A DNA stretch of 64,000 nt from Kordiimonas sp. SCSIO 12610 (GTDB lineage Bacteria > Pseudomonadota > Alphaproteobacteria > Sphingomonadales > Kordiimonadaceae). The stretch is from the NCBI RefSeq assembly GCF_024398015.1, contig NZ_CP073747.1:630501-694500 (forward strand). The letters are read 5' to 3'. Each line of letters starts with the position of its first letter. Position 1 is the stretch's first letter. Under the pieces are notes generated by a model that was given only the letters and a program-made list of their open reading frames with translations, was not told the origin of the DNA and did no database searches. Positions 2,761-27,932 of the stretch are shown piece by piece. Position numbers and translations under genes: made by a program.

Positions 2761-3972
2761 ATGTCAAAACTTGAACATATTATTCTCAAAAATGATCTAT
2801 GTGTAGGTTGTGGTTTATGTGAAACGCTTGGCGTAAATGAAGGCGTTAAGATGGGCTATAATCACAAAGGGTTTTTACGCCCTCAGTTAGGCCAGACCAT
2901 TTCAAAAAAACTAGACGATCAAATTTATAAAGTATGTCCAGGGATTACTCTCGAAGCCGATGTACCTGAAAGCGAGCAGCATCTTTATTGGGGGCCTGTA
3001 CTAGATAGCTTTACGGGGTATGCAAAGGATGAAGCAGCCCGCTTTGCGGGGTCGTCCGGTGGTGGTCTATCCGCGATATTATTATATTATCTTGAAAGTG
3101 GGCAGGCTGATGTTGTAATTCAGACAGCTGCTTCTGAAAAAGACCCTATTATTAATGACGCTGTATTGTCTAACAAGGCTGAGGAAGTCATAAAAGCAGC
3201 GGGTTCGCGGTATTCTCCTGCGGCTCCTTTATCCAGATTACTGCCTACACTAGAGAAATATGATCGTATAGTGGTTGTTGGAAAACCGTGTGATATCGCA
3301 GGTTTGACTAACTTTTTACGCGATCGGACTGACCTTGAGAGTAAAGTGGTCTTGAAACTGGCTTTTATGTGTGGTGGAACACCTAGCCAGTCTGGCACCC
3401 ATGAAATCTTACAGCGACTTAAAGTAGATCATGCAGATCTGACGTCCTTTAGATATCGTGGGGAAGGGTGGCCGGGTAATGTTCAGGCGCATACTAAAGA
3501 TGGTCGATGTGAAACAATGTCGTATCCAGTTTCTTGGGGTGAAATTCTAACGAATACCGTACAGTTTCGTTGTAAAATCTGTGCAGACGCTACTGGTGCA
3601 TTCTCAGACATTACTTTTGCAGATGCTTGGTATGATGACGGAGGTGGTATGCCATCGTTTGATGAACAAGCTGGTCGTAGTTTGATATTGGCGCGCACTG
3701 ATCGTGGCTTACAAGCTCTAAATAATGCTAAAAAGTTTGGCACTATTCAGACTGATCCATTGGCCATTGAAGAAGTCGCAAAAATGCAACCTTATCATGT
3801 CTTGAGGAAGCAGTTAGTTATGTCACGCCTAATAGCTCTCAGGCTTGGTTTTCGGGTCGTTCCTTCATATAAAAAGCTTCGACTTCGCGAAGCAGCTATG
3901 CAAGCGGGGATTAAAAAGAGTTTGAAAAGCTTCCTGGGCATGATGAAACGAGTTATTTTGCGTAAAGTGTAA
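2761..3972 (+). CDS. FrhB-like coenzyme F420 hydrogenase/dehydrogenase beta-subunit family protein
   Basis: The 403-residue protein starts with an iron-sulfur motif (LCVGCGLC near residues 15-21, with a later VCPG) and continues into an FrhB-type domain. A 'GSSGGG' loop lies near residue 100, and 'FMCGGTPS' and 'CKICADATGAFSDITFAD' occur later. Related proteins use F420 or flavin in archaea. In bacterial surface-polysaccharide clusters they usually sit next to pyruvyl transferases and have no settled reaction. The close spacing to the preceding gene suggests co-transcription. A redox step on a sugar or lipid carrier is inference only. Confidence 0.82.
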   Translation: MSKLEHIILKNDLCVGCGLCETLGVNEGVKMGYNHKGFLRPQLGQTISKKLDDQIYKVCPGITLEADVPESEQHLYWGPVLDSFTGYAKDEAARFAGSSGGGLSAILLYYLESGQADVVIQTAASEKDPIINDAVLSNKAEEVIKAAGSRYSPAAPLSRLLPTLEKYDRIVVVGKPCDIAGLTNFLRDRTDLESKVVLKLAFMCGGTPSQSGTHEILQRLKVDHADLTSFRYRGEGWPGNVQAHTKDGRCETMSYPVSWGEILTNTVQFRCKICADATGAFSDITFADAWYDDGGGMPSFDEQAGRSLILARTDRGLQALNNAKKFGTIQTDPLAIEEVAKMQPYHVLRKQLVMSRLIALRLGFRVVPSYKKLRLREAAMQAGIKKSLKSFLGMMKRVILRKV

Positions 3973-4011: not shown

Positions 4012-5148
4012 GTGAATGTTCTGAGAAGTAACAAATTATTATACTGTCAACAGAGACATAGCATGCTTAGCATTACTTCTTTCAAAGCTAATATCAGCGC
4101 CGGTATCAGATTAGCGGACGTAAGCGATACACGTGACAACAATTATAACTTGCTAAGGTTCTTAGCTGCAGCGGGCGTTATTGTATCGCATAGTTATCCG
4201 CTTAGCCATGGAGCTGGAACACACGAACCTTTATCTGATATTCTCGGGTTTTCGCTTGGAAGGTTAAGCGTCTATATTTTCTTTGTAGTCAGTGGATTTT
4301 TGATCGCAAAAAGCTTTTGCCAATGTAAGGGGATGCTCGATTATACGCTTGCACGTGTTTTTAGAATATTCCCGGCCCTTATCGCAATTGTATTGTTATC
4401 GGCTTTGGTGCTCGGTCCTATTGTTAGTGAGTTGCCAGCCAATACATACTTTAGTGATATCAGTGTTTATACTTATATTATTCGAAACATTTCGCTCGTA
4501 TCATTACAGTTTGGAATTACTGGTGTCTTTGAAGATAACATATACCCAAGTGCCATTAATGGGTCATTGTGGACACTGCCGTATGAGATTGCTTGCTATA
4601 TTATGATCGCATGTATCGGGTTTGTCGGTGCCTTTCGGTCTAAATCTATTTTATTCTTGGTGTTGTTTGCATATGGGTTAGCCTGGCTCTTTCACGAATT
4701 TATCAGTTTTGATCATGCATTGTGGTATAAACTTGGGCTGTTTTTGGAGTTATCACTGTATTTTTGGGCAGGCTCGTTATCGTATATATACCGCGATAGA
4801 ATTGCACTGAATCTTCCATTAGTAATAGTTTTCTTGTTACTTTCATTGGTGTTTATTGATACAGATTTCTTTAAGTTTGCCTTTGCGCCGGGCCTTACGT
4901 TAGCAATATTTTATCTTGTATATATCCCGGCGGGATTGGTAAGAGAGTACAATAAGTTAGGTGATTATTCCTATGGATTATACATTATTGCTTTCCCTAC
5001 TCAGCAAGTTTTGTCGATGATGATCCAGGATATTTCTCCTTTAGAAATGATGCTTTACACGTTCTTTATTACCTTATTTTTCTCGGTAATCAGTTGGCAC
5101 ATATTGGAAAAACCGGCGTTGCGACTAAGGCGATATTTTATCAAGTAG
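4012..5148 (+). CDS. Acyltransferase 3 (OafA/YrhL-type) membrane O-acyltransferase
   Basis: This is a multi-pass membrane protein of up to 378 residues. It has the family signature 'NLLRFLAAAGVIVSHSYPLS' with the conserved Arg and the His of the catalytic region, then about ten hydrophobic helices and an 'NGSLWTLPYEI' loop. The family moves acetyl or succinyl groups onto polysaccharides, lipids or sugars at the inner membrane. The frame opens at a GTG (4012); an in-frame ATG at 4063 is an equally possible start, and neither has a strong ribosome site. It most likely O-acylates the exopolysaccharide made by this locus. Confidence 0.88.
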   Translation: MNVLRSNKLLYCQQRHSMLSITSFKANISAGIRLADVSDTRDNNYNLLRFLAAAGVIVSHSYPLSHGAGTHEPLSDILGFSLGRLSVYIFFVVSGFLIAKSFCQCKGMLDYTLARVFRIFPALIAIVLLSALVLGPIVSELPANTYFSDISVYTYIIRNISLVSLQFGITGVFEDNIYPSAINGSLWTLPYEIACYIMIACIGFVGAFRSKSILFLVLFAYGLAWLFHEFISFDHALWYKLGLFLELSLYFWAGSLSYIYRDRIALNLPLVIVFLLLSLVFIDTDFFKFAFAPGLTLAIFYLVYIPAGLVREYNKLGDYSYGLYIIAFPTQQVLSMMIQDISPLEMMLYTFFITLFFSVISWHILEKPALRLRRYFIK

Positions 5149-5361: not shown

Positions 5362-5871
5362 TTAAGCAAAATCTACTGCATTGCGCTCGCGGCGGCGAAG
5401 CTGAAGTCCTACAAGACCGAAGCCGAGGATCATCATCAACCATGTGGCTGGCTCAGGAATGAATGCTACGCGGAAAGTACCACCGCTAGGAGTAGCAGAG
5501 TCGCCAAATACAACACGAACGAAGTCAGTGCTTAGATCAAGACCAATTGTGTTGAAACGTACAACACTGCCTGGACCCACATCAGTAAGGCCAGTGCCTA
5601 AAAGTGTGTCACCGTGGAAAACGCTGAACTGAACACCAGCGATATTTGTAACATTTACCAACCATGCTACGTGTGCACCAACAGTATCAAGAACAAATGT
5701 TTGCTCGTCTTCAAAGCCTGGATCATTTGGTCCAACATTAACACCAAATGTACTTTCGTGAACGAGAACACCTTCTTCTACTGTGCCGTCAGGCAAATTA
5801 AATGTTTCACTAGCTTGTGCGCCGAGGGCAACGAAGAAACAAGCTGTGATGGCCATAACTAACCGTTTCAT
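5362..5871 (-). CDS. PEP-CTERM sorting domain-containing exported protein
   Basis: The 169-residue protein has an N-terminal signal peptide (MKRLVMAITACFFVALGAQA). Its short beta-rich body contains a 'FRVAF' strand just before the tail. The C-terminus is a classic tripartite sorting signal: PEPATW, a hydrophobic helix (LMMILGFGLVGLQL) and a basic cluster RRRER. Such tails are recognised and cleaved by an exosortase. A GAAAGGAG ribosome site precedes the ATG. The final NAVDFA extends past the basic cluster a little more than usual. The body matches no domain I recognise; it is probably a secreted or surface matrix protein of the exopolysaccharide system. Confidence 0.9.
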   Translation of the reverse strand: MKRLVMAITACFFVALGAQASETFNLPDGTVEEGVLVHESTFGVNVGPNDPGFEDEQTFVLDTVGAHVAWLVNVTNIAGVQFSVFHGDTLLGTGLTDVGPGSVVRFNTIGLDLSTDFVRVVFGDSATPSGGTFRVAFIPEPATWLMMILGFGLVGLQLRRRERNAVDFA

Positions 5872-16535: not shown

Positions 16536-17330
16536 CTATGATTTATTGAATTTTCTTAGGTTCAATCTGGCTTTGATTTCAGGCACAATTGTCAGTTCAT
16601 ATCCTCGATACTCTTTTCCAATCGATAGATCTTGAGTATAGCCGTTAAGTTGATCGTTCATATAGTTTTCAATAACATTTACATACGCTTCTGTACCTGC
16701 AATCACAGCGCGGGCAAAAGCGGCATAAATATTGTCGCCTTTCTCAAGTCTTGCTGTTTCAGTTTCAAATATTTTACCGCCATCTACCGCAGATGTGCAT
16801 TCATGGACAGTTGCACCTAGCATCTCTAAATCGTTATTCACAATTGGCCAGAACGCACAAGCCGTACCTCTGTAATGGGGACTAATGCCTGTATGCATGT
16901 TAAATGCGAGATCTGTTGCTAGATGCAGTATCTTATCTTGGACGATTCGCGTTCCATATACTAAAATTGCATCTGGATTGTGCTGTTTGATTATGCTGGC
17001 AGTCTCGGAAGTGTTTAATCCTTCAACCGGCTGGATGAGGCTGGGGTTTTCGAAGGATAAAGACTTTTCACCGAGGATATCAACCAGAGCTTCAGAGCGT
17101 TTTCGATCATTATCAATTAATTTAAAGAAGATGATTCGGCTGGCTTTACCTAAAAAATTCAGTAAGCCATGCCGAAAGTATGATTTTTTCTTACGATTAT
17201 ATATCTTTTTGTCTATCAAAATAGCCTGTATGTCAAAGCGTGCACTGAGATGATTGGCAACATACCGTTGTTCATAGCTATCGGTGGTTAGGACCACTAG
17301 TCTCGGTTTTTTAGAGCTTTCTGAGGACAC
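16536..17330 (-). CDS. Sugar N-formyltransferase-like protein (formyl transferase fold)
   Basis: The 264-residue protein has the formyltransferase core 'FNMHTGISPHYRGTACAFWP', with Asn144 and His146. A later 'SAVDGGKIFE' carries Asp183, which completes the expected Asn-His-Asp triad. It lacks the C-terminal tRNA-binding domain of Fmt and lies among polysaccharide genes, so it is probably a 10-formyl-THF-dependent formyltransferase acting on an amino sugar. The start is GTG at 17330. The downstream 16485-16536 gap holds no clear terminator. Confidence 0.8.
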   Translation of the reverse strand: MSSESSKKPRLVVLTTDSYEQRYVANHLSARFDIQAILIDKKIYNRKKKSYFRHGLLNFLGKASRIIFFKLIDNDRKRSEALVDILGEKSLSFENPSLIQPVEGLNTSETASIIKQHNPDAILVYGTRIVQDKILHLATDLAFNMHTGISPHYRGTACAFWPIVNNDLEMLGATVHECTSAVDGGKIFETETARLEKGDNIYAAFARAVIAGTEAYVNVIENYMNDQLNGYTQDLSIGKEYRGYELTIVPEIKARLNLRKFNKS

Positions 17331-18997: not shown

Positions 18998-19729
18998 ATG
19001 TTAAGAGAGAAAATATCTCGAAAGCTGGCAAAATTTATCCCGCTTGAGACAATATCAATGAAAAATAAAAAGCCGCTTGTCAGTTTCACGTTTGATGATT
19101 TTCCAAAAAGTGCGGCAACTCGCGGAGCCAGTATATTAGAGAAATATGGGTATGCTGGTACTTTTTATGGGTGTGGCGGGTTGTTAGGGCATATGCATGA
19201 TGACACTCTTATTGTAACTGAAGAGGATATAAAGGCACTCCATAGAGGCGGCCATGAGATTGGATGCCATACGTATGGCCATATTGATTGCCAACGAAGT
19301 CCTAATGAGCTCTTGTCGGCAGATTTACAAAAAAACAAACATTTTATAGAAGATTTAACAGGCTCCGAAATTAGTAGTTTTGCTTATCCGTTCGGTAAAA
19401 TTGATATGAGCTCACGGCGCACAGTTTCTAATTACTACAAGAACGCGCGCACTGTATTTCCTGGATTGAATGCAGGTAAACTGTGTATGCATTCACTGAA
19501 ATCATATAGTTTATATTCAAATGGGTTTGACCTTGCAGCCTTTGAAAAAATTATCAAAACGGCAATAGATCAAAATGCATGGTTAATTTTTTACACGCAC
19601 GATGTATCTGAAACACCGGCTCAGTTTGGCTGTAGACCAGAAGAATTTGAAGCAATTGTTCGGTTAATCAATGATAGCGGCCTTCAAACCGTAACCACTA
19701 TGAACAAGGCACCGGAATATATATTCTAA
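18998..19729 (+). CDS. Polysaccharide deacetylase family protein (second NodB)
   Basis: This 243-residue protein has 'SFTFDDFPKSA' (motif 1, DD) and 'HEIGCHTYGHIDC' (H-x3-H), plus 'FAYPFGK' and a terminal 'WLIFYTHDV'. There is no signal peptide or membrane anchor, so it is probably cytoplasmic and could deacetylate a nucleotide sugar or lipid-linked sugar. That differs from the membrane-anchored deacetylase at 9262. It lies between minus-strand genes, divergent from the asparagine-synthase-like gene and convergent with the polymerase gene. Confidence 0.85.
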   Translation: MLREKISRKLAKFIPLETISMKNKKPLVSFTFDDFPKSAATRGASILEKYGYAGTFYGCGGLLGHMHDDTLIVTEEDIKALHRGGHEIGCHTYGHIDCQRSPNELLSADLQKNKHFIEDLTGSEISSFAYPFGKIDMSSRRTVSNYYKNARTVFPGLNAGKLCMHSLKSYSLYSNGFDLAAFEKIIKTAIDQNAWLIFYTHDVSETPAQFGCRPEEFEAIVRLINDSGLQTVTTMNKAPEYIF

Positions 19730-19731
19730 CC

Positions 19732-21276
19732 TTATCCGTTCGGCTGAACTTCTGATGCTTGTTGTTGCTTGAATTTGATCGCGATTATAAAGACTATCGC
19801 CGCTAACATATAGATTAAACTATGATTGGCGATTTGAGATAAGATAGTTTTAATCAATAAAAACGCTGCCATAGTAGATGCAATTGATGCTGTCATTGCG
19901 TTTAAGGGGCTGTTTTTTGAGTGATATAGATACATTTTTACTGCGGTAGCGATCGTAATACCAAAGAAAAGTAAGAAACATACGAGTGCTATGACTCCTG
20001 TTTCCAGCAAAATAGATAAAATATAGCTATCAATGGTGATCGAGTTCAATGCGCTTGCACCTTGGCCCATTCCATGTCCAAACACGGGGTTTTCCAGAAG
20101 CTTCGGAAAGCCAGTTTGCCACTGAATAATACGACCTTGAGTGCTGGCTTCGGTTCCCGCGCCACCAAACGCCAGATTATTCAAGCGTGTACTTGCAAAT
20201 AATGCGACGAACACAAGGCTAGCCATTGTGGTGTAGAGGATTGCGATGGCGGGTCCGAGTATGTTTCTCGCATCTTGAACCCACCCTCTTAAGCCCCAAA
20301 GAAAGACATAGGTAGCACCTGCAAACAGAAAACCAACGTGCGCCAGTCTAGCGCCAGTAGTTAGAGCAGCAGTAAATGCGATAACCAAGCATGAAATGGC
20401 AATTAGTTTGCCTATGATACTTTTCCGCTCAAAGAGGAAATAATATGCAAAAGGGCTTAAATAAGCGAATAATTCGCCAAATTCGAGTGAGGTGATGGAA
20501 GTTCCTCGAACTCGATATGACCCGTTTCGGTAAATCGGGTTTATAATTCGTGACATGGCTCCGCTACCATCGTCAACGATTGCCCATGATGGTAGGTACT
20601 TCACCCACAAGTTCGTTTCTTGTGCTTGTTCGATAAACGCCATACCAGATAAGTACAATAAAATAACGAGGGCTATGTAGGGTAAGGATTTTAGTATTTT
20701 TTCAGAATTCAGAACACTGATTGTTATGATAAATGCCATAGCAGTTGCCATGGAATATTTCAGAAAGAAACTCATACTGTAACCAGAACTGGATGAGAAA
20801 AAAACACTACAAAACTGAATGGTTACAAGGCCAATAATTGAGAATAATGTGATCGGATACTGTTCGTAAAAGGTAGCGATATGGCTTTTTGCCTGCCGCG
20901 ATACGGAAATGTTTACCAGAGCAATGAATGTCATAAGAAAGAGAATGATTCGCCCAGGTGGTGCCCATATTGCTCCAGGTAATGGTATGATCGATACGTA
21001 AGGTGGCCAGACACAGATACAAATAATGTATAATAACATCAGCGGCTGCATGAAAAACTCATAGCAGGTGTCTTTTTCCGGCATTAGCCAAACACCCATT
21101 AAGCTGATCAGGATTGCAGGCACCAAAGCATATTGAAAGCCCAGAAAACCGGTTATCGGCAGCGTCATACCATAAATTACAGACAGCCCAATACCTAATA
21201 TGATGATTGCTATCAGTGTCAGGTAGTAGCGCGACCTCTTGGTAATAGAGGAATAATTGTAAAATGGTTTGGCCAT
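19732..21276 (-). CDS. O-antigen ligase/polymerase family membrane protein (Wzy-like)
   Basis: The protein has about 514 residues and some 12 hydrophobic helices. A periplasmic loop carries 'GRIIQWQTGFPKLLENPVFGHGMG', the R-x-x-x-W and G-H-G-x-G pattern of the WzyC/Wzy_C domain. The family polymerises or ligates lipid-linked repeat units on the outer face of the inner membrane. Beside a Wzx-like flippase it is best read as the exopolysaccharide polymerase. The frame opens at TTG 21288; I prefer the ATG at 21276, but neither has a good ribosome site. Confidence 0.85.
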   Translation of the reverse strand: MAKPFYNYSSITKRSRYYLTLIAIIILGIGLSVIYGMTLPITGFLGFQYALVPAILISLMGVWLMPEKDTCYEFFMQPLMLLYIICICVWPPYVSIIPLPGAIWAPPGRIILFLMTFIALVNISVSRQAKSHIATFYEQYPITLFSIIGLVTIQFCSVFFSSSSGYSMSFFLKYSMATAMAFIITISVLNSEKILKSLPYIALVILLYLSGMAFIEQAQETNLWVKYLPSWAIVDDGSGAMSRIINPIYRNGSYRVRGTSITSLEFGELFAYLSPFAYYFLFERKSIIGKLIAISCLVIAFTAALTTGARLAHVGFLFAGATYVFLWGLRGWVQDARNILGPAIAILYTTMASLVFVALFASTRLNNLAFGGAGTEASTQGRIIQWQTGFPKLLENPVFGHGMGQGASALNSITIDSYILSILLETGVIALVCFLLFFGITIATAVKMYLYHSKNSPLNAMTASIASTMAAFLLIKTILSQIANHSLIYMLAAIVFIIAIKFKQQQASEVQPNG

Positions 21277-21423
21277 GGGTTGATACAACCGTATTTGATC
21301 ATTTCATGTGAATAAGTTTTTTAATACAGAATTTCTTAACAATGCAATAAAACCAGCATTGAATTTTTGTTTAAATATAACAACTCATGAAGTTATGAGA
21401 AATTATTAAATGGCTATGCTTCG

Positions 21424-22875
21424 TCATGTTTTTCGATATAGCGAACTGTTTTTATAAACATTATGTATCACACGCCTCAGAGCTGGTAAGGCGCAGGTCA
21501 GAATTATGCATGTGATTGTTGGTATCACGAAGCCAATGATAATTTGGAGCCATTGGTTCAATGTTTGAAGGTAAATTTCATTAAGGTAAACGAGTGATAA
21601 CACTATTAACGACGCTATTATCGTACTTGGTATTAAGTTCGGGATTTTGATATCAAGTTTGAGCTTTATGAGTATGAAAGCTGTAATCGTAGCCAGTATT
21701 TCACAGATAACTGACCCAAGAAGAACAGCGTATATGCCATAATCTGCCCAAATCAGTACAATAGCCAAAATGATCGACAATGCTTTGACCATATTAGAAA
21801 TGACAATACTTTTTGTATAGCCAAGAGCCAGGGCAATACTGGTTGCACCGCCTTTAAAAAGGCGAGCACTACAAACAAGTGCGATAATAACAATTATGTT
21901 TCGTGCATCATTATATTCGTCGCCGTACAATACTCCAATCAGTGCCGGGCATGCAATCGCTGCGAATATCCCAACAAAAACTCCAGATAAAATACTGAAC
22001 TCAGTTGCGACGGCTGCATCTTTCACAAAATCGTCCCTATGATCCTGTTTTTTGGCAAGGATTGGTAAATATAATCTTTGTGTAATTTGGGTTATTAAAA
22101 GTGTAGGAATTAAAGTCAGAGAAATGGAGGCAGTATATAAGCTTAGGTCCTTAATCGAGAAACTTGCCCCTATAATTGTTCTATCGCCTTCAACAACGGA
22201 TAACATCATAATGCCGTTAATCCATAGCGGCCAGCCGTATTGTAATAAACGCATCATTACGGGTTTATTGAATTGCCAACGATAAGGCTTTTTCGCAACA
22301 ATATGTGAGATAGCCGTATAAGATAGAATTTGAATAGTCATGGAGAATATAGCAATTCTGTAATCATCATAGAAATTGCTTGCTATGATAACAGTGATGA
22401 TTGAAATCACTTGTGACCCAACATCTACGATAACGGATGGTAGGTATTGCATTTCGCGCTGAAAGCGCGCCATATCCAAGTGCGATAGGCTTCTGATAAA
22501 AGGCACTGAAGCTAGAATTTGTAATGAAGGCGCTATGTCGGGTTTGTTGAAGAAATCAGCTATGTATGGTGCGGCGCAGAAAATCACAAGGCTACCTAAT
22601 AAGCCGCGTGTTACCTGTAATGTATGTGAGGTTGCAAGCACCTCCGGCTTGTCACCATCTGGTGATTGTATGATAAATCTATCAAGTCCGATGTAACTTG
22701 ATGCTTCAACAGCGGTCATGATTATAGCGAAAATTGCTACGACACCAAAATCTTCAACCGTTACAAGTCTCGCTATCAGGACGTTTTTGAGAAACGTAAG
22801 TGCAGATGTCAAGCCGATACCAAAAGAGAGCAGTGCACCGCTTTTTGCAAATTTTAAAGTGGGTGATTTTGTCAA
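21424..22875 (-). CDS. Polysaccharide flippase (Wzx/PST, MATE-like superfamily)
   Basis: The 483-residue protein has 12 or more hydrophobic helices and the family start 'GIGLTSALTFLKNVLIARLVTVEDFGVVAIF'-type helix pair (read in parts across residues 18-48). It flips undecaprenyl-linked repeat units across the inner membrane. It sits upstream of the polymerase gene on the same strand. The start appears to be TTG at 22875 with a GAAAGATG ribosome site. No Wzc-type kinase or Wza-type export protein occurs in the window; these may lie upstream of base 1. Confidence 0.87.
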   Translation of the reverse strand: MTKSPTLKFAKSGALLSFGIGLTSALTFLKNVLIARLVTVEDFGVVAIFAIIMTAVEASSYIGLDRFIIQSPDGDKPEVLATSHTLQVTRGLLGSLVIFCAAPYIADFFNKPDIAPSLQILASVPFIRSLSHLDMARFQREMQYLPSVIVDVGSQVISIITVIIASNFYDDYRIAIFSMTIQILSYTAISHIVAKKPYRWQFNKPVMMRLLQYGWPLWINGIMMLSVVEGDRTIIGASFSIKDLSLYTASISLTLIPTLLITQITQRLYLPILAKKQDHRDDFVKDAAVATEFSILSGVFVGIFAAIACPALIGVLYGDEYNDARNIIVIIALVCSARLFKGGATSIALALGYTKSIVISNMVKALSIILAIVLIWADYGIYAVLLGSVICEILATITAFILIKLKLDIKIPNLIPSTIIASLIVLSLVYLNEIYLQTLNQWLQIIIGFVIPTITCIILTCALPALRRVIHNVYKNSSLYRKT

Positions 22876-23061: not shown

Positions 23062-24498
23062 TTACGAAAAATTGTCTGTTATATGCGCTGTTATCTCAAG
23101 GATGTATGGCTGTATCACTGCTTCCGTAGTCGTGGTAGCAGTGGATAATATCGAAGTTGTTTGATTGGTTTTAACCTTAGGTAACCTTTTACTGATGATT
23201 TTTACGTTGTCAGTATGGTGGCTTGCAATAAGGGCAAGCATTTCCTCACCAAGCTGTTTCGCAAGGTAATACTCTTCGATGCCTGGGGTTTTCTCTTCAA
23301 TATCTGTAGTTGATGGGTTGAAAATAATGACTTTTTTGCGGGCTTCTATGAAACGTTCGATTACTTTTAGTAATCCATCGCAGTAATGAGATGCAAAATT
23401 TTGGTATAGTTTAGGGTCAAATATTTTAGTTTTTCGCGTAAATATTTGTGGGGTGGCAAAGAAATAAACAACATTATACTGTGAAACATCAATAGAGTTT
23501 ACGTCATCTTGATTTAAAACATTGAGTGGAAGCATGTCGCAGTTTCCAGTGTTTTCAATGATGTCGTTCATAACGGCATGAGCGGATTTTTTTGATGAAG
23601 CATAGGTTATTGTTGGCGTTCCCCCTCCTGCAGCTATAATCTTTGCTGTTGTTGCACCTAGCCCTTTAGAACCTCCAATAATTAAAGCTTTTTGGTTGGC
23701 AAACTGCTCTGTTTCTACTTTTTCTAAAATTTCTGTATATGCAGTTTCAACTATCGGTGTGGGGCGAAAAAACGCATGTACCTTTGCCGTTACTCCTGAT
23801 CCCGTTACATTCAATATTGTCAATCGTAAGCGTTCATCATTAAAGTCGATTTTATAATTAATATCTTTTGTCGGACTATCGTTGAAAGAAAAAGCCATTT
23901 TTGAGCAGAAAGAAAATTCACCAGGCCAGTACATGCCTACAATAGTTGATATTGATGCCATCGACATGACCCGATCCATGCCTATTTGTGAAGACAGTGA
24001 AGGATATGCTTTGGTTATGTCAGACGGAACAATATTGATATGTATTTTTTCGTATTCTTTTGGTTGAGATTGGATTTGTAAAATCGGCTTTTTTCGCCTT
24101 TCAGTGCTGGTGAATATTAGCCCGTCACAAACCGCAAGTTTGTGATCGCCGTAATCTAACGTAATATCGAAACATGTTGTGATACCAACGCGGGCGCTTA
24201 TATCTATGCTATTATCTTTGTTTTTTTCGACGAAGATTTTTAAAATATCGCCTTCGAAAACTGGTTTGTGAAAAGCGGCAGTGCATGTTGCGACCGAGGA
24301 AAAGTCTATAATGTTTTGTCCAGAGATTAATTCAAGAATATTTAATACACTATTGATGCCATGGATTAGACGTTTTTCAAATCCAGCACTTTTAGCAAAC
24401 TGATTATCGGAATGAATTGGATTTGTATCACCTGATATATTCATAAAGTGTTCATGATTGTTTTCATCAATCGTGAAAGAAGTTTCATAAAATACCAT
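23062..24498 (-). CDS. MaoC-like hydratase fused to short-chain dehydrogenase/reductase
   Basis: The 478-residue protein has at least two modules. Residues 1-135 form an R-specific hydratase (MaoC hot-dog) with the catalytic 'GDTNPIHSD' (Asp24, His29). Residues 150-250 look like a second, divergent hot-dog domain. Residues 268-478 are an SDR Rossmann domain with 'GGSKGLG' (275-281) and the catalytic Y-x3-K (Tyr410, Lys414), preceded by Ser396. Separate MaoC and SDR enzymes hydrate and reduce enoyl/3-oxoacyl thioesters. Fusion beside a divergent ACP gene suggests processing of an ACP-bound acyl group for sugar modification. Intact frame; ATG at 24498 with an AAGG site. Confidence 0.78.
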   Translation of the reverse strand: MVFYETSFTIDENNHEHFMNISGDTNPIHSDNQFAKSAGFEKRLIHGINSVLNILELISGQNIIDFSSVATCTAAFHKPVFEGDILKIFVEKNKDNSIDISARVGITTCFDITLDYGDHKLAVCDGLIFTSTERRKKPILQIQSQPKEYEKIHINIVPSDITKAYPSLSSQIGMDRVMSMASISTIVGMYWPGEFSFCSKMAFSFNDSPTKDINYKIDFNDERLRLTILNVTGSGVTAKVHAFFRPTPIVETAYTEILEKVETEQFANQKALIIGGSKGLGATTAKIIAAGGGTPTITYASSKKSAHAVMNDIIENTGNCDMLPLNVLNQDDVNSIDVSQYNVVYFFATPQIFTRKTKIFDPKLYQNFASHYCDGLLKVIERFIEARKKVIIFNPSTTDIEEKTPGIEEYYLAKQLGEEMLALIASHHTDNVKIISKRLPKVKTNQTTSILSTATTTTEAVIQPYILEITAHITDNFS

Positions 24499-24611
24499 AA
24501 ATATTACCAGCCTTATTGAATAACACGTTATATCTTCGAAATATTATCTTAACTTTCTTTCGTTAAATGACTATAAAAATTGCAATAAAAAAGTGTCTAG
24601 AAAGGCAGAAA

Positions 24612-24851
24612 ATGAACAGAGATGAAATCACAAAGAAGTTTCAAGGAATATTCCAAAATATTATGGGAGCGGATGGGTATACTTTTTCTGAAGAAACCAA
24701 GCCAGAAGATGTGGCAAAATGGGATAGTTTAAATCACGTCATGTTGATTGTGACTACCGAGCAAGAGTTTTCGATTAAATTCTCAGTCGACGAAGTTGAG
24801 AAATTTTCCTGTATTGGTAGCTTTATTAATTCTTTATCTGATAAGCTTTAA
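24612..24851 (+). CDS. Acyl carrier protein
   Basis: This 79-residue acidic protein has the phosphopantetheine site 'WDSLNH', with Ser39 as the attachment residue. The real start is ATG 24612 with AAAGG 6-8 bases upstream, and not the earlier in-frame ATG at 24567, which would add 15 basic residues. It is one of several carriers cells use outside fatty acid synthesis. Location between the divergent MaoC/SDR gene and the FkbH-like gene indicates a dedicated carrier for a polysaccharide acyl substituent. Confidence 0.9.
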   Translation: MNRDEITKKFQGIFQNIMGADGYTFSEETKPEDVAKWDSLNHVMLIVTTEQEFSIKFSVDEVEKFSCIGSFINSLSDKL

Positions 24852-24896
24852 ATCTACTTATTTATAATTATTTTGCTAAGTTCATAAGGAAAGTCA

Positions 24897-26777
24897 TTGG
24901 CTTATCAAATCGAAATGTTACCTTGGCTGCCGAGAGCTGACGAGAGCGTAAAAGAGAGTCTCAAGCGTTCTTTTGACCAAGAAAAAGTTGATGTTGGTGG
25001 TTTGCAAAGTTCGCTAGGGTATTGGTTTGGCCTTAATGATTTAAGGAATATTTCGTCCTCGCTAGAGGAGAAACTTGGGGATAACAAGATAGAAGGCGAT
25101 GTTGTAAAAATTGCTTTCTTGAGTGATACGACATCGAATTATATAACGTCAGCATTACAGGCAACATGTCTCAGGCATGGTGTCGTAAGTCAAGTTTATG
25201 CAGGCCTATATGGTCAGGTTTGGCAAGAAGTTTATGATGACGCAAGTCAGCTATACAAAGAAAAGCCAGATATTGTTTTTCTGTCTTTAACTCTTGATTT
25301 CTTTAATTTGCAACAAGCATCATTAAGCGCAAGAACAGATGAACTTTCTGAAGCTTCTTCGAAGTTGATAGCTTTAGTTGAAGCAATTAAAACACGAACA
25401 GGTGCTGCCGTTATTGTGCAAAACTTTATGGCTAATAGTTTACCTTTAATGGGAAATTATGATGCTCAAGCGCCAGGCAGCATACTTCAAGCAACTAATT
25501 ATATGAATACTGAGGTGGCCAAGCTCGCTGATCAGGCTGGAGTATATCTATTTGATTTGAATACACTGGCGGCAACAGTCGGGAGTGCCAGATGGTTTAA
25601 CCTTGTACAGTGGCATATGGCTAAACTGCCTTTCGATATGGAATTTGTCCCTATTTATACAGACTCTATAGCGCGAATTATTGGTGCAATTAAAGGCAAA
25701 AGCCGAAAATGTCTGGTCTTAGATCTGGATAATACTTTATGGGGCGGTGTCATTGGTGATGACGGTGTAGAGAATATACTTGTCGGCAGTGGAAGCGCTA
25801 GTGCTGAAGCGTTTAGTGCAGTGCAGAGATATGCCCGACAATTAAAAGAACGCGGTATTATTCTGGCTGTGTGTTCAAAGAATGAAGAAGAAAACGCCCT
25901 CCTACCTTTCAAGCAGCACGATGAAATGTTGCTAAAAGAGGATGACTTCGCGATTTTTGTTGCTAACTGGAATGATAAAGCCAGTAACCTTCAGTACATA
26001 GCAAAGACGTTGAATATTGGCCTCGATGCCCTTGTTTTCCTGGATGATAATCCAGCCGAACGTGTAAGGGTTCGGCAATCCTTGCCGGAAGTTGCGGTTA
26101 TCGAGCCTGGTGATGATGCAACATACTATTGTAATGCACTTGCATCATCGGGTTGGTTTGAAACAATTGCGGTATCAGCAGATGATATGAAACGTGCTGA
26201 GCAGTACCGTACAAATGTTTTACGTTCAAATGAAAGGGAAAAAATCGGCAATATTTCTGATTATTTGATTTCGTTGGATATGAAGGCAAACATAGCACCA
26301 TTTAACGAGCAAAACCGTAAAAGAGTGACGCAGCTGGTCAATAAAACCAATCAATTCAATATGACGACCAAACGCTATGATGAAGCTGATATAGAAAGCT
26401 TCGAAAAAGATAGTCGTTATTTTACTTATCAGGTGAAGTTAGCTGATAAGTTTGGAGATAATGGAATTGTATCGGTTGTCATCATTGAACACACCGATAA
26501 TACCTGGGTTATTGATAGCTGGCTTATGAGTTGTCGCGTGTTCGGTCGAAGACTCGAACATTGTATCATGAACTATGTTGTCGAACAGGCACGCTCTAAT
26601 GACATAGATAATATTATTGGACTTTATAGTAAAACCGCTAAAAATAGTTTGGTTGCAGATTTGTACGGCCAGTTGGGGTTTGAAGCTGCGCCTGATAATG
26701 TTAACAAAGCTGATACAAGTAGTTGGGCGTTAAAAATTACCGACTATCAAGCCGTCGAGTCCTATATTTCTCTATGA
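24897..26777 (+). CDS. FkbH-like HAD-IIIC family protein (SGNH-like/HAD/GNAT)
   Basis: The 626-residue protein has three parts. Residues 70-265 form an SGNH/GDSL-like region. Residues 270-420 are a HAD domain with nucleophile motif 'VLDLDNTLWGG' (Asp276, Asp278). Residues about 430-620 look like a GNAT acyltransferase with 'NKTNQFNMTTKRY'. FkbH proteins load a glyceryl unit from 1,3-bisphosphoglycerate onto an ACP in polyketide pathways, and homologues occur in bacterial glycan loci. The start is TTG with an AAGGAAAG site, 45 bp after the ACP stop. It probably charges that ACP with a short oxygenated acyl group. Confidence 0.87.
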   Translation: MAYQIEMLPWLPRADESVKESLKRSFDQEKVDVGGLQSSLGYWFGLNDLRNISSSLEEKLGDNKIEGDVVKIAFLSDTTSNYITSALQATCLRHGVVSQVYAGLYGQVWQEVYDDASQLYKEKPDIVFLSLTLDFFNLQQASLSARTDELSEASSKLIALVEAIKTRTGAAVIVQNFMANSLPLMGNYDAQAPGSILQATNYMNTEVAKLADQAGVYLFDLNTLAATVGSARWFNLVQWHMAKLPFDMEFVPIYTDSIARIIGAIKGKSRKCLVLDLDNTLWGGVIGDDGVENILVGSGSASAEAFSAVQRYARQLKERGIILAVCSKNEEENALLPFKQHDEMLLKEDDFAIFVANWNDKASNLQYIAKTLNIGLDALVFLDDNPAERVRVRQSLPEVAVIEPGDDATYYCNALASSGWFETIAVSADDMKRAEQYRTNVLRSNEREKIGNISDYLISLDMKANIAPFNEQNRKRVTQLVNKTNQFNMTTKRYDEADIESFEKDSRYFTYQVKLADKFGDNGIVSVVIIEHTDNTWVIDSWLMSCRVFGRRLEHCIMNYVVEQARSNDIDNIIGLYSKTAKNSLVADLYGQLGFEAAPDNVNKADTSSWALKITDYQAVESYISL

Positions 26778-26822
26778 GAATGCCAGTATAAATAAAAAAT
26801 AAAAGTAAGGGAATTTTATCCA

Positions 26823-27932
26823 ATGCAAATGCAGTCATATAAAGCAGAGCATGCAGACGCTGTAATTGCAATGAACCAGCGATTAAAAGAAGGCGGGAGT
26901 AGTTGGGGGTTTTATGATAGTGAAACCCCGCGTTGGATACCCAAAACACACGCTAGTCAAAAAGCTTGGACGGAGTATCATCTCGCTATTGATGACCAGC
27001 AAGAAGTCCATGGCGGATATGTCATTAAATATCAGACAATCACCTTCAAGTCTGAGGAACTGACGGTTTCCAGTTGGCAGGGGCCTGTCTCCGAGGGGTT
27101 GGTCAATAATCGTTATGCAGCATTAGGGTTTTTGATGATCCGTGACATTATGGAGAAAAATGAAAATCTGTTTTTATGGGGCGGATCTGATAAATTGATT
27201 GAGTTGATTGATCGTATGCAATGGCCCAATAGATATCTTCCCTTTCACTTATATGTTGTTAAACCTTTCAACTTCCTCACAAAAGCAAATATATTACGAA
27301 ATTCCAAAATCAAAGCATTGGTTTGTGATTTTGCGGCCTATTCGGGTGTAGGTGCCCTTGCTATTAAACTTTGGCAAAAGATACGCCATAAGAATACTAA
27401 TGCTAGAAGTGTAGATGTTATTGCTGTCGACACTTTTGATGATTGGGCAACAACCCTGTGGCACGCAGCTAAGCATCAGTATCAGTTCACTGGAGTGCGT
27501 GACAAAGAGCATTTGAATTTGTTTCACTTCTCTGGTGATTGGCCAAATTCAAAAATTCTTCGTGTTAAAAAAGAAGGCCACGACCTTGGGTGGGTAGCCG
27601 TTAAGTTTACTCAGTTTGAAGATGATCACAGGTTTGGGGCAATGAGAGTTGCAACGCTTGTTGATATGGTTGCCTTGCCTGAGAAAGAGCACTTGATAAT
27701 GCAGGTTGTGCTCTCTCATTTGAAAAAGCTTGGTGATGTTGACCTGGTTTGTACATGTTTATCAAATGGTACATGGCAACACTCTGTCAAAAATTGTGGG
27801 TACACGCTCGTACCAAATAGGCGATGTTTCGCATTGGCACCGGCCTTGGCAGCACAAATTGACGACTTTGATGACTTTATTTCTCAGACTCACTTAACAC
27901 TTATCGATAGTGACGGACCACACGGGTTTTAA
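26823..27932 (+). CDS. GNAT-fold acyltransferase-like protein of unknown specificity
   Basis: This is a 369-residue cytoplasmic protein. The C-terminal half ('RVATLVDMVALPEKEHLIMQ' then 'DLVCTCLSNGTWQHSVKNCGY') has the strand-helix order of GNAT acyltransferases. The ending 'IDSDGPHGF' recalls other GNAT-like proteins of glycan clusters. It lies 45 bp after the FkbH-like gene on the same strand with an AAGGGA ribosome site. Reading it as the transferase that moves the ACP-bound acyl group to a sugar is inference; no catalytic residue can be assigned with certainty. Confidence 0.6.
   Translation: MQMQSYKAEHADAVIAMNQRLKEGGSSWGFYDSETPRWIPKTHASQKAWTEYHLAIDDQQEVHGGYVIKYQTITFKSEELTVSSWQGPVSEGLVNNRYAALGFLMIRDIMEKNENLFLWGGSDKLIELIDRMQWPNRYLPFHLYVVKPFNFLTKANILRNSKIKALVCDFAAYSGVGALAIKLWQKIRHKNTNARSVDVIAVDTFDDWATTLWHAAKHQYQFTGVRDKEHLNLFHFSGDWPNSKILRVKKEGHDLGWVAVKFTQFEDDHRFGAMRVATLVDMVALPEKEHLIMQVVLSHLKKLGDVDLVCTCLSNGTWQHSVKNCGYTLVPNRRCFALAPALAAQIDDFDDFISQTHLTLIDSDGPHGF

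Follow-up and report, generated by a model that had tools for sequence, protein, structure and literature searches.

A variable cassette encoding an FkbH-like loader and an acyl carrier protein in a Wzx/Wzy polysaccharide locus of Kordiimonas

The window analysed here is a stretch of 64,000 nucleotides from Kordiimonas sp. SCSIO 12610 (contig NZ_CP073747.1, positions 630,501 to 694,500), a member of the Alphaproteobacteria whose genome is a single contig of 3.5 Mb. Four intact open reading frames occupy the gap between the gene for a Wzx-type flippase and that for a surface lectin-like protein. They encode a MaoC-type hydratase fused to a short-chain dehydrogenase/reductase (MaoC/SDR), an acyl carrier protein (ACP), an FkbH-like loader and an orphan protein, P4. 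The MaoC/SDR gene is divergent from the ACP gene, which is co-directional with the FkbH and P4 genes on the plus strand. An earlier note on this DNA had described the four reading frames, their divergence around the ACP and the adjoining Wzx and Wzy genes, and all of these are found as described. The cassette is confirmed as more than chance, because the stop-free run of P4 has a probability of about 1e-10 in random sequence and the other genes retain conserved catalytic residues. The surroundings are a Wzx/Wzy polysaccharide locus. Besides Wzy and Wzx it encodes UDP-sugar dehydrogenases, glycosyltransferases, a WcaJ-type initiating transferase, two polysaccharide deacetylases and a formyltransferase-family protein, and upstream there are a pyruvyl transferase gene and the gene of an Acyl_transf_3 protein (4012-5148).

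The FkbH-like protein consists of an FkbH_N/SGNH-like region, a HAD-IIIC domain and a C-terminal GNAT-like part. It scores 316.6 bits against TIGR01686 (cut-off 146.65) and 56.6 bits against FkbH_N, and matches PDB entry 3slr with an E value of 7.7e-64. Both the DLDNTLW phosphatase motif (HAD DxDxT) and an SCR(V) motif near the C-terminus are conserved. This is the only copy found in its own genome. Relatives of FkbH form glyceryl-ACP from 1,3-bisphosphoglycerate (PMC7489565), and by analogy the cassette protein may be a glyceryl loader using the same donor.

The ACP carries its phosphopantetheine serine in the DSL of the WDSLNH motif (codon 24726-24728). Its reading frame opens at 24567, and the true start is probably at 24612, since homologues begin near this position and an AAGG lies upstream. 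The protein aligns with ACPs adjoining other FkbH genes and matches the PDB ACP 2lml with an E value of 1.6e-9; the host genome has a match to the phosphopantetheinyl transferase family. In the fusion protein, the MaoC half exceeds the Pfam cut-off of 27 bits and carries the SGDxNPxH motif, of which D24, N26, P27 and H29 are invariant in a three-sequence alignment. The GGSKGLG and S..YxxxK motifs of the SDR half are conserved across six homologues, and this part of the structural model matches FabG-type structures (Foldseek, FabG 3.8e-7). The model, of low confidence and based on a shallow alignment (mean predicted local distance difference test score, pLDDT, of 53), comprises a hotdog, a second hotdog-like region at residues 174-243 and the SDR domain; the MaoC part is probably a double hotdog.

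Table 1. Coordinates of the cassette genes and of neighbouring features (positions in the window).
Feature	Position	Strand	Evidence or remark
MaoC-type hydratase fused to SDR, 478 aa	23062..24498	-	PF01575 49.9 bits; motifs; model
Intergenic region between the divergent MaoC/SDR and ACP genes	24499..24611		Sequence
ACP	24612..24851	+	WDSLNH motif; alignment with FkbH-linked ACPs; PDB ACP match
FkbH-like loader, 626 aa	24897..26777	+	TIGR01686; FkbH_N; PDB 3slr
P4, orphan protein, 369 aa, candidate acyltransferase	26823..27932	+	Position; weak tandem-GNAT profile similarity
Surface protein with beta-helix, PKD and two laminin-G/concanavalin-like domains, 1040 aa	27989..31111	+	Pfam; flanks the cassette
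Wzx-type flippase	21424..22875	-	PF13440 169.5 bits; variable core
Wzy-type polymerase	19732..21288	-	Wzy_C 48.9 bits; variable core
Polysaccharide deacetylase resembling HfsH	18998..19729	+	PF01522 78.5 bits; HfsH model 181 bits, cut-off 400
Formyltransferase-family protein	16536..17330	-	PF00551 29.8 bits

FkbH is present in 8 of 100 related genomes. A search with MaoC/SDR that was blind to FkbH, across 385 genomes of the class, returned three homologues containing both parts (G272, G191 and G304), and FkbH adjoins all three of these full-length proteins. The match in G272 is the same as one on plasmid NZ_CP025615 of the alphaproteobacterium Niveispirillum. Either fused or unfused, the combination recurs in Kiloniella, Niveispirillum, Capsulimonas and Clostridia (L012, L016, L045, L071 and, in Clostridia, L015 and L023). 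Because the two recur together elsewhere, their pairing is no accident of the host genome, and gene content indicates that MaoC/SDR and FkbH form a real module. One alphaproteobacterial genome (G191) unites MaoC/SDR, a tandem GNAT, an ACP, FkbH and a deacetylase, which would be the composition of the window if P4 is a GNAT. ACP-FkbH pairs as such range from Alphaproteobacteria to Clostridia and Paenibacillus and lie for the most part in sugar loci. The co-occurrence in other genomes supports the proposal, made in the earlier note, that FkbH would act as loader and MaoC/SDR as processing enzymes.

Genes of the VOC/glyoxalase and methyltransferase families repeatedly adjoin FkbH (L052 8288-8902, L049 7873-8337, L067 11909-12337) and suggest further tailoring of the ACP-bound acid. 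Genomes of the same family as the host hold a distant FkbH-like gene (L050 9273-11114, L051 9547-11388) with a cysteine-rich N-terminus replacing FkbH_N. No ACP was found near this gene; its neighbours encode an MBOAT, a GDSL protein, an HfsH-like deacetylase, a beta-helix/laminin-G protein and a homologue of a 477-residue protein of the window, P477.

Within the genus, a second genome (G001) has a collinear locus from which all four cassette genes are absent. Identity is 62-89% from the first GT2 and WcaJ genes through the HfsH-like deacetylase, compared to 43% for Wzy, and reaches 84% at the beta-lactamase-family gene next after the laminin-G protein. The flippase at the place of Wzx is a different one (about 24% identity over a short stretch only), and the laminin-G protein, 52% identical to its counterpart, diverges along with the cassette. 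In the cassette's stead G001 holds a glycosyltransferase and a 275-residue protein. The cassette is thus variable: it is missing from this collinear locus, whose Wzx differs as well. The pattern resembles a serotype-like variable core and fits a cassette that alters the polymer. The divergence of the beta-helix/PKD/laminin-G protein looks as if it followed polymer structure. The 275-residue protein of G001 (L063 19498 to L064 322), located at the variable-core site, has no Pfam match over residues 1-167.

We read the four genes as a variable acyl-ACP cassette that would decorate the polymer of the surrounding Wzx/Wzy locus, with a probability of about 0.6. The earlier note had likewise placed an ACP-centred acyl cassette here, and that view is upheld by the independent co-occurrence of FkbH, ACP and MaoC/SDR and by the absence of the cassette from the collinear locus. 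In the proposed pathway, FkbH would take a glyceryl unit from 1,3-bisphosphoglycerate to the dedicated ACP, and the MaoC/SDR fusion would process the ACP-bound acyl group. The MaoC part would remove the 3-hydroxyl of glyceryl-ACP to give an enol-pyruvyl group, tautomerising to pyruvyl-ACP, which the SDR part would reduce to lactyl-ACP. P4 would then move the acyl group to a sugar, the likeliest acceptor being an amine that a deacetylase has freed, and Wzx would flip the unit afterwards. The acyl group should stay at three carbons because the locus genes scanned with Pfam include no ketosynthase, of type III or otherwise. A lactyl product is a tentative proposal that may be right about one time in three. 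An amine is the preferred acceptor because of the deacetylase, the tandem-GNAT parallels and the proposal made for HfsK and HfsH of Caulobacter (PMC5362036). The HfsH-like deacetylase is a candidate source of the free amine, and the formyltransferase-family protein would offer another possible step of sugar N-acylation.

Several points weigh against this reading. The ACP reaches 15.2 bits against PF00550 (cut-off 20.8) and the SDR half 19.3 bits in Pfam (cut-off 26.6), both below threshold. The HfsH-like deacetylase is also present in the cassette-free G001, and its connection with acyl transfer is therefore circumstantial. The literature searched held no precedent for a conversion of glyceryl to lactyl. 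The remaining points concern P4, which has no family match above cut-off in Pfam or NCBIfam. Homologue searches with it covered PDB sequences, viral contigs, plasmids and samples of 385 genomes of the class, 349 of the phylum and 198 of the order, and gave only chance fragments; its single-sequence AlphaFold model (mean pLDDT 33) is uninterpretable. Against a first larger tandem-GNAT profile P4 scored a weak 7.2 bits, collinear over residues 99-336, a value that 1 of 5000 shuffles matched and none of the unrelated reading frames of the control set did. With a wider profile the score dropped to 4.2 bits, which 9 of 5000 shuffles reach and one unrelated reading frame exceeds. Most of the signal comes from the C-terminal half, and when hhalign compared P4 with a profile of three tandem-GNAT sequences, the probability was 0.2%. 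The label GNAT-like, which the earlier note had given to P4, is thus unproven, and the similarity is no more than suggestive of a divergent tandem GNAT.

The putative transferases that accompany ACP-FkbH elsewhere vary. They are an MBOAT with a partner protein (Rhodobacteraceae SC52, Sinorhizobium meliloti pSymB, Tistrella, Kiloniella), WcbI (Niveispirillum) or members of an unnamed family of 340-400 residues (Clostridia, Paenibacillus, Brevibacillus and several Alphaproteobacteria). This last family has no Pfam or NCBIfam model of its own. Reading by eye suggests two GNAT domains, and the sole profile support is a sub-threshold RimI match in one member. The family often adjoins a polysaccharide deacetylase, and two members retrieved by its own profile (G288 and G219) proved to adjoin FkbH. 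P4 stands where other modules have a tandem GNAT, an MBOAT or WcbI, and by this analogy it is a candidate transferase. That P4 is instead a structural or regulatory orphan, with another protein carrying out the transfer, we consider unlikely but worth serious weight: P4 has neither a homologue nor usable fold evidence, whereas its position equals that of the transferases in other modules and its tandem-GNAT similarity, weak as it is, is collinear. Examples of the family read as tandem GNAT are found at L015 4173-5141, L049 6867-7898, L021 11721-12887, L082, L083 and L053 10685-13201, where they adjoin FkbH/ACP and deacetylase genes; most of them end in FKADGDQDRPN-like tails. Sets of MBOAT, partner, ACP and FkbH occur on L067, L068/L069, L070, L012 and L048, and in S. 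meliloti the partner protein is annotated as a TonB receptor.

With loader and carrier unchanged, the linkage could instead be an O-ester, made by P4 or by the Acyl_transf_3 protein. MBOAT O-acyltransferases often accompany ACP-FkbH (L012, L048, L067, L069, L070), and the Acyl_transf_3 gene lies inside the locus. However, that gene is 71% conserved in the cassette-free G001, no MBOAT was found among the locus genes scanned, and where FkbH comes with both MaoC and SDR, the further partner is, Kiloniella apart, a tandem GNAT, WcbI or a formyltransferase-like gene, not an MBOAT. We therefore hold an O-ester to be a minority prospect, of roughly one part in four. The usual substrates of MaoC and FabG-like enzymes, 3-hydroxyacyl and 3-oxoacyl thioesters, raise another alternative, in which MaoC/SDR would act on such a group derived from fatty acid or butyryl metabolism and yield a 3-hydroxyacyl product, with FkbH serving another acid. 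The acyl group of Pseudomonas syringae viosamine is indeed a 3-hydroxybutyryl made with an ACP and a FabG-type reductase (PMC3927599). Unlike that island, the locus genes scanned include no ketosynthase III, and MaoC/SDR is tied to FkbH in each of the three unbiased full-length matches, which makes this alternative improbable. It is more improbable still that the product is a small metabolite or lipid with no bearing on the polysaccharide, the cassette lying here by chance. Polyketide clusters are the best-known setting of FkbH/ACP pairs, but the locus genes scanned include no polyketide synthase or non-ribosomal peptide synthetase, several relatives are located in sugar loci, and the cassette sits between Wzx and the surface lectin-like protein, where the otherwise collinear polysaccharide locus has its variable core.

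Set beside known systems, the proposed cassette for acyl decoration of the polymer has its closest functional parallel in the viosamine island of P. syringae (vioS, vioB, vioR, acp) and the glycosylation island of P. aeruginosa PAK. In the viosamine island an ACP, a ketosynthase III and a reductase prepare 3-hydroxybutyryl for an amino sugar; both islands share with the cassette a small dedicated ACP, an SDR-type reductase, the proposed transfer of an acyl group to an amino sugar and a strain-variable presence (PMC3927599). In the viosamine system, however, ketosynthase III (VioS) builds a C4 acid, whereas here FkbH takes its place and the SDR is joined to a MaoC domain. As in the glyceryl-ACP pathways of tetronates and methoxymalonyl-ACP polyketides, the FkbH homologue adjoins a stand-alone ACP. 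In those pathways glyceryl undergoes oxidation or is built into a polyketide by condensation; in the cassette, FkbH and ACP are joined by MaoC/SDR and a putative transferase, and the setting is a polysaccharide locus. In the Caulobacter holdfast, the tandem-GNAT protein HfsK is proposed to re-acylate amines freed by HfsH, the acyl group being unknown (PMC5362036). The pairing of a deacetylase with a possible tandem GNAT is alike, the GNAT nature of P4 being suggestive only, but the deacetylase of the window is far under the cut-off of the HfsH model. For the holdfast, no ACP or FkbH turned up.

In the Dlt system, DltA is the loader, DltC the carrier and DltB an MBOAT. The logic of loader, carrier and transferase is shared, and the MBOAT-ACP-FkbH loci of Sinorhizobium and others are especially Dlt-like, with FkbH as the presumed loader. 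The window differs in having neither an MBOAT beside the carrier nor an adenylating loader among the genes scanned; FkbH would use an acyl phosphate. An analogy with Campylobacter had also been drawn in the earlier note. It is borne out by half, in that cj1302 of C. jejuni, an FkbH-domain gene, lies within a flagellar glycosylation locus and so, like the FkbH gene here, in a sugar-modification locus; the text cited for this (PMC7099621) speaks of no glyceric acid and no acyl carrier, the other elements of the analogy, and does not establish the product. Literature searches on FkbH with polysaccharide, gellan or MBOAT gave nothing direct. What would set the cassette apart from known ACP-dependent sugar acylation is FkbH replacing the ketosynthase, together with the MaoC/SDR fusion, and a wider system behind it appears credible.

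The remainder of the locus offers some further observations. Its identity as a holdfast (hfs) locus was rejected because the scores for HfsE (332 of 750 bits) and HfsH stayed below the curated cut-offs; the WcaJ model, in contrast to that of HfsE, was matched with 495.5 bits, above its cut-off. P477 (17377-18810) has no Pfam family, is conserved in related polysaccharide loci, and contains TAGFDSR, by eye an asparagine-synthetase-like PP-loop. It was rejected as the transferase, being of this apparent type and conserved in the cassette-free G001. A polysaccharide pyruvyl transferase (1564-2736) is followed by an FrhB/FdhB-domain protein (2761-3972), and therefore pyruvylation of the polymer is also possible. 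A protein with a PEP-CTERM motif (5362-5871), 94% identical to its G001 copy, lies at the edge of the locus. Promoter-like sites between the MaoC/SDR and ACP genes show no excess over shuffled expectation, terminator-like sites are little above it, and no Rfam families were found in the window.

ACP-FkbH may represent a widespread, modular route of acylation from glycolysis to glycan, a view we put forward tentatively and at somewhat less than even odds. A C3 acid would be loaded by FkbH from 1,3-bisphosphoglycerate onto the carrier, tailored by accessory enzymes (MaoC/SDR, methyltransferase or VOC, for instance from glyceryl to lactyl) and passed to surface polysaccharides by exchangeable transferases (MBOAT, WcbI, tandem GNAT or P4), in the cytoplasm or across the membrane. 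If this is true, some small hydroxy-acid decorations of bacterial surface sugars would derive directly from an acyl phosphate of glycolysis, with no chain-building enzymes involved. It would also provide a testable route through glyceryl-, pyruvyl- and lactyl-ACP, a genomic signature predicting such decorations, and a suggested acyl donor for the tandem-GNAT proteins that adjoin polysaccharide deacetylases.

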